Assembly: GCA_903844115.1 (NCBI GenBank)
Contig: CAIMSI010000125.1
Span: 1 to 46,983, forward strand
Direction: 5' to 3'
From: an uncultured Actinomycetes bacterium
Lineage (GTDB): Bacteria; Actinomycetota; Actinomycetes; Nanopelagicales; Nanopelagicaceae
DNA length: 46,983 nucleotides
The notes under the pieces were generated by a model that worked only from the letters and a program-made list of their open reading frames with translations, searched no databases and was not told where the DNA came from. The translations under genes and the position numbers were made by a program. Shown piece by piece: positions 5,442-11,302 of the stretch. Every line of letters begins with the position of its first letter. The stretch's first letter is position 1.

Positions 5442-5705
5442 TTGTTACCCATTCGGAGTTGCATCGCTTGTCGAAAGCGTGAGAATTGGAGCGACTTGCT
5501 TCGGCTAGTTGTGATTGAAAATCAGGTTCATCCTGATCCAAATCATAAGTTGCCAGGGCGTGGTGGGTGGATGCATAGAAAATGTTTCGATGTAGCTGTC
5601 CAAAGAAATGCATTTAATAGAGCCTTTGGAAGAAATTCTAAAAGTTCGCAAGATTTAAATATTCTAGATTTACAAGTACTTGAGAATTATCTCGAGACAA
5701 AATGA
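5442..5705 (+). CDS. ylxR: YlxR (DUF448) RNA-binding protein
   Basis: Small 87-aa protein of the YlxR/DUF448 family, a putative RNA-binding fold always found between nusA and infB. The family signature is present: RSCIACRKR with C7 and C10 near the start and LPGRGGWMHRKCFDVAV around 38-54. It starts at TTG 5442, supported by GAGAGG (5430-5435) about six bases upstream; no in-frame ATG or GTG fits the conserved N terminus. Its role (nucleoid or RNA-associated regulation in other bacteria) is not settled. Confidence 0.9.
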   Translation: MLPIRSCIACRKRENWSDLLRLVVIENQVHPDPNHKLPGRGGWMHRKCFDVAVQRNAFNRAFGRNSKSSQDLNILDLQVLENYLETK

Positions 5706-5738
5706 ATAAGTAATTAATTAGGTAATAAGGAGCAATAC

Positions 5739-5768
5739 ATGTCTACAAAGGCAACATCACAATCATGA
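5739..5768 (+). CDS. Possible 9-codon leader peptide upstream of infB
   Basis: ATG 5739 encodes MSTKATSQS and stops at TGA 5766-5768. It is preceded by AAGGAG (5728-5733) at five bases, one of the best ribosome-binding sites in the window, in a gap between ylxR and infB that otherwise holds no gene. The stop codon lies inside the 5' arm of a 9-bp hairpin (5763-5785). A ribosome terminating here would therefore open or block that hairpin. No database support is available; it could be a chance short frame. Confidence 0.4.
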   Translation: MSTKATSQS

Positions 5769-5785
5769 GCGCCGCACGCTCATGA
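5763..5785 (+). promoter_or_regulatory. Perfect 9-bp hairpin in the infB leader
   Basis: TCATGAGCG (5763-5771), loop CCGCA, CGCTCATGA (5777-5785). The arms are perfectly complementary. There is no T-run after it, so it is not a Rho-independent terminator. It overlaps the stop codon of the 9-codon leader frame. Confidence 0.55.
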
Positions 5786-5800
5786 GTAAGGCATTGATTT

Positions 5801-5843
5801 AGGCTCCTGAAATACCCGGGGGCCTCCTAAAAGTAGGAAAGGC
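5801..5843 (+). promoter_or_regulatory. Mutually exclusive hairpins controlling the infB ribosome-binding site (candidate)
   Basis: Two alternative folds share bases 5822-5825. Fold A pairs AGGCTCC (5801-5807) with GGGGCCT (5819-5825), seven pairs including one G-U. Fold B pairs GCC-TCCTA (5822-5829) with TAGGA and GGC (5834-5843), leaving two bulged A residues; this buries the AGGAAAGG Shine-Dalgarno (5836-5842) of the infB GTG at 5848. Formation of A would release the site. This is read by eye; no energies were computed. Confidence 0.4.
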
Positions 5844-5847
5844 AACC

Positions 5848-8559
5848 GTGGCTAAAGTTCGCGTTTATGAATTAGCGAAAGAGTTAGGTTTAGAGAGCAA
5901 AGAGTTGCTCGCTAAATTGCAAGAAGTGGGCGAGTTTGTTCGCTCTGCATCCTCGACAGTTGAAGCGCCAGTAGTGCGCAAGCTGATGGAAAAGTTCCCG
6001 GATATGAAGCCGGTTGAAGCTGCTCCGAAGCCAGTTAAAAAAGCAGCTGCTAAAAAGGCAGTGGCAAAACCAGCACCTACCCCTGAAGAGATTGAAGCAG
6101 CGATTGCTTCTCTCGATGAGGGAACCAGGTCTCAGATTGAAAAAATTAGCCGTGAAGCAGCAGCGCCAGTTATAGAAACACCTGCTCCTTCTCCAGAAAA
6201 TCCAGTTTCAGAAAAGCCAGCAACACCAGCTGCTAATCCATTCTCTGCAATGCCACGTCCACCTCGCGCAGGAAATAATCCATTTTCATCAGCAGTCGGT
6301 GGAGCAATGCCACGTCCACCAGCACGTCGTCCATTACATCCAGGAGAGCGTCCACCTCAAACTGGTCCAGCACGTACACCTATGTCAGGTGCACGTCCTG
6401 GTCAAGGTCGTCCAGGTTTTGCGCAAAGAGCACCTGGCGCATCAGGTGGAGCACCAGGCGCGGGATCATCGCGTCCCGGCGGCCCAGCAGGTACTTCAGG
6501 ATCATCGCGTCCCGGAAGTTCATCTCCATATCGCCCAGGTTCAGCAGGTACTTCAGGAGCTCCCACAACAGGCGCTGCTCCAGCAGGCGGTCAAACATTT
6601 GGTAAAGGTCCAGCACGTCATCAACGCGGTGGCGCAGCAGGTGCGTTTGGTAAGCAAACCGGTAAGAGTCGTAAAGCGCACAAGAGTAAGAAAGCGTTAC
6701 GTGAAGAATTCGACAATATGGCAGCACCAAGTCTTGGTGGCGCAGTTGTTCCACGTGGTGATGGCAAGACTGTAGTTCGCTTGCGCCGCGGTGCCTCACT
6801 TATGGATCTTGCTGAAAAGATTAATGCAGATGCTTCTGCTCTAGTTTCAGCGCTATTCCACCTAGGTGAAATGGTTACTGCAACCCAATCAGTAGATGAA
6901 GATACTTTTGCAATTCTTGGTGGCGAGATGGGTTATGTCATTGAGATTGTTAGCCCAGAAGATGAAGATCGCGAACTTCTACAGGAGTTTGATATCGATC
7001 TTGCTGGAGAGCTTGAAGATATTGCTGATGAAGACCTTGTAGTGCGCTCGCCAATCGTGACAGTTATGGGTCACGTTGATCACGGTAAGACACGACTATT
7101 GGATAGCATCCGTAGTACTGAAGTAATTAAGTCTGAAGCAGGCGGAATTACACAGCACATCGGTGCCTATCAAATCCATCACATGCATGATGGCGTTGAA
7201 CGCGCGATTACCTTTATTGATACACCGGGCCACGAAGCGTTCACAGCTATGCGTGCCCGCGGTACAAAGGTCACAGATATAGCAGTTCTCGTTGTCGCAG
7301 CTGATGATGGTGTCATGCCACAAACAATTGAAGCACTTAACCACGCTCAGGCAGCAGATGTGCCAATCGTTGTTGCAGTTAACAAGATTGATAAAGAAGG
7401 AGCGAACCCAGATAAGGTCCGCCAGCAATTAACTGAATACAACTTGATTGCCGAGGAATACGGCGGAACTACAATTTTCGTAAACGTATCTGCTAAATCA
7501 GGTGAAGGAGTCGATGCACTTATCGAGTCAATTCTCCTTACTGCTGATGCAGCTCTAGATCTTCGAGCAGTTGCAAATGATGTAGCTCGCGGTGTTGCAA
7601 TCGAAGCAAATCTTGATAAGGGTCGTGGCCCTGTGGCTACTGTCCTAGTACAACGTGGAACTCTGCACGTGGGAGATGCAATCGTTGCTGGTGGTGCTTA
7701 TGGTCGAGTACGTGCGATGTTGGATGAAAATGGTGATGCCGTAGAAGTAGCCGGTCCATCTCGTCCAGTTCAGGTACTTGGTTTTACAAGCGTTCCTGGT
7801 GCGGGAGATTCATTTATCGTTGCAGAAGATGACCGTACTGCTCGTCAAATTGCAGAAAAGCGTCAACTTGCAATGCGAAATGCAATGCTTGCTAAGACTC
7901 GCAAGAAGGTTTCACTTGAAGACTTTATGGAGCAGTCCAAGGTCAGCACACTTAACCTCATTATCAAAGGTGACGTCTCCGGATCTGTTGAAGCTCTTGA
8001 AGATGCTCTTATGCAACTTGATGTGGGAGCGGAAGTTGATCTCCGTGTTATCCACCGTGGTGTTGGAGCGATCACAAAGAATGACGTCACACTCGCTTCA
8101 GCCTCAACTGCTGTAATCATTGGATTCAATGTTAAGCCTGAACCACAAACGGCTACCTTCGCAGATCAAGAAGGCGTGGAAGTTCGCTTCTATACCGTCA
8201 TCTACAAGGCTATTGAAGAAATTGAAGCCTCACTCAAGGGACTTCTCAAGCCAGAATTTGAAGAAATCGTTCTCGGTAATGCCGAAGTGCGAGAAATCTT
8301 CCGTTCCAGCAAATTCGGAAATATTGCTGGTTGTTTGGTTCAAGATGGAATCATCAAGCGCAACGGTAAAGCACGCGTTATGCGAGCAGGAACCGTCGTT
8401 GGAGACAACTTGGCAATCGAATCACTTCGTCGCTTTAAAGATGATGCAACTGAAGTTCGTGATGGATTCGAGTGCGGTATCGGACTTGGTTCATTCAACG
8501 ATATTCAAGAGGGCGACAACATTCAGGTATTTGAAATCCGCGAGAAGAAGCGCGCTTAG
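5848..8559 (+). CDS. infB: Translation initiation factor IF-2
   Basis: GTPase that places initiator tRNA on the 30S subunit and promotes subunit joining. It is 903 aa. Order: N-terminal IF2_N module (1-45, [12 protein letters not shown]), a long Ala/Pro/Gly/Arg-rich linker (about 50-290), a second IF2_N-like module (about 310-360), and the G domain with GHVDHGKT at 408-415, [12 protein letters not shown] and SAKSGEG. Beta-barrel, IF2 domain 3 and C-terminal tRNA-binding domain follow. The GTG start at 5848 is preceded by AGGAAAGG. The linker contains short tandem duplications of RPG/GTSG-type units. Confidence 0.98.
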
Positions 8560-11186: not shown

Positions 11187-11302
11187 ATGCAGGTTATCGG
11201 TCCTCGGTAGTGGTTTATGGGACACGGTCCCATGAACTTCGATCGAAGATCCATTTCCTGCACATAAGTCTTTATTTTGTTCTGGAAAGACGAGAAATGG
11301 AG
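11187..11302 (+). promoter_or_regulatory. Structured 5' leader of pnp
   Basis: The gap between rpsO and pnp holds no gene but several palindromes. These are ATGGGAC-ACG-GTCCCAT (11217-11233), the 12-base palindrome CTTCGATCGAAG (11237-11248), and a long-range pair TGCAGG (11188-11193) with CCTGCA (11257-11262) that encloses both. pnp leaders in enterobacteria fold and are cleaved by RNase III for autoregulation; whether this leader does the same is inference. Confidence 0.45.

Follow-up and report, generated by a model that had tools for sequence, protein, structure and literature searches.

The window, the whole 46,983-nt stretch of DNA analyzed, carries infB, the gene for translation initiation factor IF2, at positions 5848–8559 of the forward strand, with a GTG start codon. 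The gene before it, at 5442–5705 on the same strand, we take to be ylxR from its position and sequence. An earlier note on this DNA described a 9-codon frame with a strong Shine-Dalgarno (SD) sequence upstream of infB, and this frame is present. It is mini-ORF1 (5739–5768, forward strand like all leader features below), which runs from an ATG at 5739 to a TGA ending at 5768, encodes MSTKATSQS, and is preceded by the SD AAGGAGC. However, it is only the first of three chained mini-ORFs, which the note had missed. The TGA codon of mini-ORF1 (5766–5768) overlaps the ATG at 5765 that opens mini-ORF2 (5765–5785, MSAARS), giving the sequence ATGA, and the TGA of mini-ORF2 (5783–5785) overlaps in the same way the ATG at 5782 that opens mini-ORF3 (5782–5802, MSKALI). 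The TAG stop codon of mini-ORF3 (5800–5802) abuts the left arm of a hairpin.

This hairpin pairs a left arm, L (5802–5809), with a right arm, R (5817–5824), and is followed by the infB SD. L would sit under a ribosome terminating at mini-ORF3. Arm R pairs with L or, in the window, extends the infB SD hairpin (GCCTCCTA/TAGGA..GGC, 5822–5843), which competes with L:R for positions 5822–5824. Both of the downstream structures that had been proposed to have bases 5822–5824/5 in common are present. The SD of mini-ORF1 (AGGAGC, 5728–5733), which we label U, can in turn pair with L (GCTCCT, 5803–5808) in the minimum-energy fold, and when the window leader is folded in full U:L is present together with a closed SD hairpin. 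The leader in the window folds better than its dinucleotide shuffles (z = −2.75, with 2 of 200 shuffles equally good). No Rfam family matched the leader, either in the window at gathering scores or in seven relatives at E-values up to 1. In the window, Rfam matched nothing but the already known cis-regulatory Actino-pnp RNA (RF01688), at 11196–11254 of the forward strand. It is flanked by two ORFs that we read as rpsO-like (a short one) and pnp-like.

The perfect 9-bp hairpin claimed for this leader is found in the window (5763–5785, arms 5763–5771 and 5777–5785) and consists mostly of two TCATGA junctions paired to each other. We rejected it as a class-wide element. At least 7 of its 9 base pairs are kept in just 16 of 110 leaders, 15 of which belong to the order of the window. 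TCATGA junctions are self-complementary and pair with each other, and the hairpin is a local by-product of them.

Leaders for comparison were gathered from the genus, family, and class (Actinomycetes) of the window and from beyond the class; by their family labels, those from the class come from ∼39 families. Under a strict rule, requiring three chained ORFs within 130 nt, 121 of 136 non-redundant leaders from the class carry the chain, against 0.65 expected from dinucleotide shuffles, and it precedes infB in none of 47 leaders from outside the class. A relaxed rule that allows 1-nt overlaps and gaps of up to 3 nt finds the chain in 146 of 148 leaders (the shuffle control covers the strict rule only), and the two failures, L056 and L067, still have two chained ORFs. 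Stop and start codons overlap in the forms ATGA, GTGA, and TGATG. The encoded peptides are, for example, MSAR, MSTQR, and MSTSS in L132; MSTR, MSTR, and MSTPMK in L141, which we read as Streptomyces-type; MSTP, VKSRR, and MTMRRS in L209, presumably mycobacteria-type, with a GTGA overlap; and METK, VNGSK, and MRPVRD in L216. When 148 genomes were scanned with the chain pattern, matches fell almost exclusively at infB.

Several loci depart from this arrangement. L084 seemed to be a chain-less exception and was discarded, its 193-amino-acid ORF (1501–2082) having an IF2-like start with no IF2 body after it, and so not being infB. The chain pattern was also matched by a tandem CGATGAGCCCC repeat at L256 (G082:C1:2349392-2349423), which lies on a different contig from infB. 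In L161 and L202 the chain (MRTSTR, MNAQG) stops well short of the last hairpin 5′ of the infB SD; these leaders possibly hold a shifted or reduced version of the device.

The distances between successive ATGARY motifs are almost always 8, 11, 14, or 17 nt. Of 138 spacings, 128 equal 2 modulo 3, and 9 more (25 and 28 nt) fit two steps. Mini-ORF2 mostly has 4–6 codons and mini-ORF3 mostly 5–7, and mini-ORF3 still ends right before the hairpin. An in-frame mini-ORF3 stop codon lies within 12 nt of L in all 115 leaders compared, against 14 and 7 for the other two frames, a count that is partly built in since the loci were picked for having the chain. The peptide sequences vary widely among these leaders, with no conserved stall codons or peptide and a preference for Met-Ser as the sole regularity. 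The conservation of the 9-codon peptide that the earlier note proposed to check in relatives is thus absent. As judged by comparison, what is kept is the shortness, the overlap, and the number of the frames and not the peptide, and in this sense the mini-ORFs behave as reading frames.

The predicted SD strengths are −5.1 kcal/mol for mini-ORF1, −2.5 for mini-ORF2, −2.4 for mini-ORF3, and −7.4 for infB, compared with −3.0 for random sites. Across the class, the SD is as a rule moderate at mini-ORF1 and strong at infB, whereas at mini-ORF2 and mini-ORF3 it is no better than at random sites. The absence of SDs on mini-ORF2 and mini-ORF3, together with overlaps that keep frame, is what serial termination-reinitiation would need. 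Termination-reinitiation at AUGA has been shown by experiment, with reporters in Mycobacterium smegmatis (PMC11260477) and also in Escherichia coli and Haloferax (PMC6728339).

Most of the class has a partner for arm R within the infB coding sequence. This partner, which we label C, comprises infB codons 3–6 (AAG GTC CGG and variants). With R placed by its fold with L and by a sequence profile, leaving the infB sequence out, a mean of 6.8 of 8 positions pair with C, compared with at most 5.1 at the other registers tried. Seven or eight R:C pairs form in 77 of 115 leaders, against at most 1 leader at other registers. Swapping infB starts among species lowered the mean to 6.44 ± 0.055, with 0 of 2000 permutations as high, and in a duplex-energy test the observed −17.4 compares with −14.5 ± 0.28 for swapped starts (again 0 of 2000). 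The permutation tests in this analysis ignore relatedness and do not fully correct for base composition; the compensatory cases across families outweigh the p-values. Specifically, R has changed together with C where Val is replaced by Leu in L027 (CGTGGAGCT/AGCTCCGCG), by Thr in L221 and L227 (CGGGTC/GACCCG, with the register shifted in L221), and by Ala in L172 and L224 (CGCGGGCC/GGCCCGCG), as well as with the codons GTT in L076 (GCGAACC/GGTTCGC) and CGT in L220 (CACGGACC/GGTCCGTG). At the wobble base of the Arg codon the R:C pair is swapped between C-G and G-C (43 versus 30 leaders). The compensatory base changes sought in relatives are therefore found, and a competing fold exists as had been supposed, but in most of the class the conserved version involves infB codons 3–6 and not the SD.

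L:R uses the same arm R as R:C or R:SD, making the hairpins mutually exclusive. In the 77 leaders with strong pairing, R:C would enclose the infB SD and start codon in its loop. Masking L changed the cost of opening the SD by a median of 0 over all leaders, with a rise of more than 1 kcal/mol in 32 of 115. This overall effect is small because the SD in R:C leaders sits in a loop and not in a stem. A “blocked start” measure taken from sampled structures was saturated and uninformative.

The clade of the window has lost R:C, its infB reading AAAGTTCGCG. Where R:C is weak or lost, as here, R tends to strengthen the infB SD hairpin. It had been claimed that one of the two downstream hairpins frees the infB SD and the other hides it. 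This contrast is partial. A 5-bp stem over the SD (5825–5829/5834–5838) stays in both folds, but the computed cost of opening the SD together with the start went up on masking L, from 6.8 to 14.2 kcal/mol (L001). The corresponding increases were from 4.3 to 11.1 kcal/mol in L208 and from 7.0 to 14.5 kcal/mol in L218, and most of the largest increases occur where R:C pairing is weak or lacking, for example in leaders that by our own taxon reading are Nocardia-like, mycobacterial, and Micrococcaceae-like. The switch logic thus seems to be kept while the partner of R differs. U and L covary in a low-GC subset of 23 leaders, mainly from the order of the window (−11.5 versus −9.65 ± 0.45 for permuted pairs, 0 of 2000), through pairs such as AGGAGC/GCTCCT, GGATGCGA/TCGCATCC, and GCGAGC/GCTCGC. 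As a class-wide pairing U:L was not supported, since 103 of 2000 permutations were as good in mid-GC and 131 of 2000 in high-GC leaders, and just 66 of 115 leaders beat shuffled sequence. With U:L the window leader has four competing segments, as does the trp attenuator.

The comparison thus establishes at the level of sequence the chain, the keeping of frame, the number three, the SD-less second and third ORFs, and the L:R and R:C pairings. Our main reading of this comparative and computed evidence, to which we assign a probability of roughly 55%, is an attenuator in which serial termination-reinitiation reports initiation capacity and IF2 exerts negative feedback on its own synthesis. A ribosome would load at mini-ORF1, end after a few codons, restart at the overlapping start of mini-ORF2, and then do the same at mini-ORF3. 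Only a ribosome that had made all three starts would get to the mini-ORF3 stop codon and cover L, releasing R to shut infB. Closure would be achieved in most of the class by R binding to infB codons 3–6, with the SD and start in the loop, and in the window clade and others by R reinforcing the SD hairpin. When initiation capacity (IF2, fMet-tRNA, or IF1/IF3) is scarce, ribosomes would drop out before mini-ORF3, L:R would form, and the infB start would be open. IF2 would accordingly rise when initiation is limiting and fall when it is ample. Since three consecutive starts would be needed, occupancy of L should drop steeply with falling initiation capacity. Here we infer that the mini-ORFs are translated and that a terminating ribosome masks L. 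The direction of control would follow from the arm on which such a ribosome sits, and IF2 is proposed as the sensed factor only because infB encodes it. The translational attenuator that the earlier note had suggested for infB is thus well supported by the comparison, including the compensatory base changes, but the single leader peptide on which it was built is not conserved.

Trp- and erm-type attenuators select among alternative hairpins by the position of a ribosome in a leader ORF. The infB leader likewise has segments competing for common arms, as in whiB7/wblC, the actinobacterial case (PMC10727445), but where those leaders have one stalling peptide it has three serial overlapping ORFs with no codon or drug signature, and it would regulate an initiation factor. 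For Mycobacterium abscessus, a published list of WhiB7 binding peaks includes one ahead of infB, MAB_3131c (PMC10727445), so infB may also answer to translation-stress control. Reinitiation at ATGA overlaps (PMC6728339, PMC11260477) has the same stop-start sequence and downstream starts without an SD; the infB-leader ORFs differ in being a few codons long, in coming in threes, and in encoding no known protein. Coupling in the infB leader seems to work like a counter or a gate. In the case of E. coli infC, which encodes IF3 and has an AUU start codon, an initiation factor tunes its own synthesis via the initiation step. The infB leader concerns another factor and has a mini-ORF chain instead of a non-standard start codon. 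Eukaryotic GCN4 and ATF4 report initiation capacity through several short upstream ORFs and reinitiation. Several short ORFs and a proposed reinitiation readout are found here too (GCN4/ATF4 are reviewed in PMC5972666), but the infB leader is bacterial, has overlapping starts and an RNA switch with no cap scanning, and would control an initiation factor itself. More tentatively, and at a little below even odds, we propose a GCN4-like, class-wide three-step reinitiation counter that works through an RNA switch to gauge initiation capacity and adjust IF2 levels, with a four-segment U-L-R-SD form in the order of the window that would leave infB open only if ribosomes load yet fail to complete the chain.

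The closest competitor, to which we give a substantial though minority share of the probability, is the same attenuator with an input other than IF2, such as fMet-tRNA supply, IF1/IF3, recycling (RRF), or antibiotic stalling. In vitro, 70S reinitiation has been reported to be triggered by fMet-tRNA, to be regulated by IF1 and IF3, and to depend strongly on an SD at the second cistron (PMC5972666), so that IF2 may not be the sensed factor, a point against the main reading. The whiB7/wblC leaders of the same phylum, moreover, sense stalled ribosomes (PMC10727445). The near restriction of the chain pattern to infB in the 148-genome scan nonetheless points to the product of infB, and the unconserved peptides argue against a stalling peptide. 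We consider it unlikely that the chain simply hands ribosomes to infB by reinitiation ∼43 nt past mini-ORF3, L:R just shortening the path (positive coupling). The median gap between the mini-ORF3 stop codon and infB is 43 nt, and post-termination ribosomes are able to travel more than 40 nt (PMC5972666), but infB itself carries a strong SD (−7.4 kcal/mol), and a class-wide R:C pairing enclosing the infB start once L is covered would be unexpected in a delivery device.

Two further explanations fit the leaders poorly. Leaders of the Streptomyces type, and certain other GC-rich ones, strongly conserve the repeat CGATGAGYAC, as would suit a protein- or RNA-binding motif (a DNA operator or RNA repeat) in place of reading frames. 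This we judge very improbable, given that the spacing changes in steps of 3 with the frame kept, that mycobacteria-type leaders swap ATGA for GTGA and retain the chain, and that mini-ORF3 stops at L despite its variable length. A small-molecule riboswitch or a classical peptide-stall leader could account for the alternative folds but is the least credible of all; the leader matches no Rfam family, we saw nothing like a conserved aptamer core beyond the arms, and the peptide sequences diverge. Nothing thus indicates the small ligand that the earlier note had entertained as a signal.

On the preferred reading, a feedback attenuator, the leader seems to be an ancient mechanism, so far undescribed, that adjusts how much IF2 is made to the capacity of the cell for starting translation. 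We found no published description of an infB mini-ORF leader in the open-access literature, and to our knowledge there is no established autoregulatory mechanism for bacterial IF2. The chain may have been overlooked because mini-ORFs of 4–6 codons fall below the usual length limits of gene finders. It spans Streptomyces-type, mycobacteria-type, and freshwater Nanopelagicales genomes and would lend itself naturally to sensing initiation capacity, and the three mini-ORFs would offer a clean system in which to study bacterial reinitiation.
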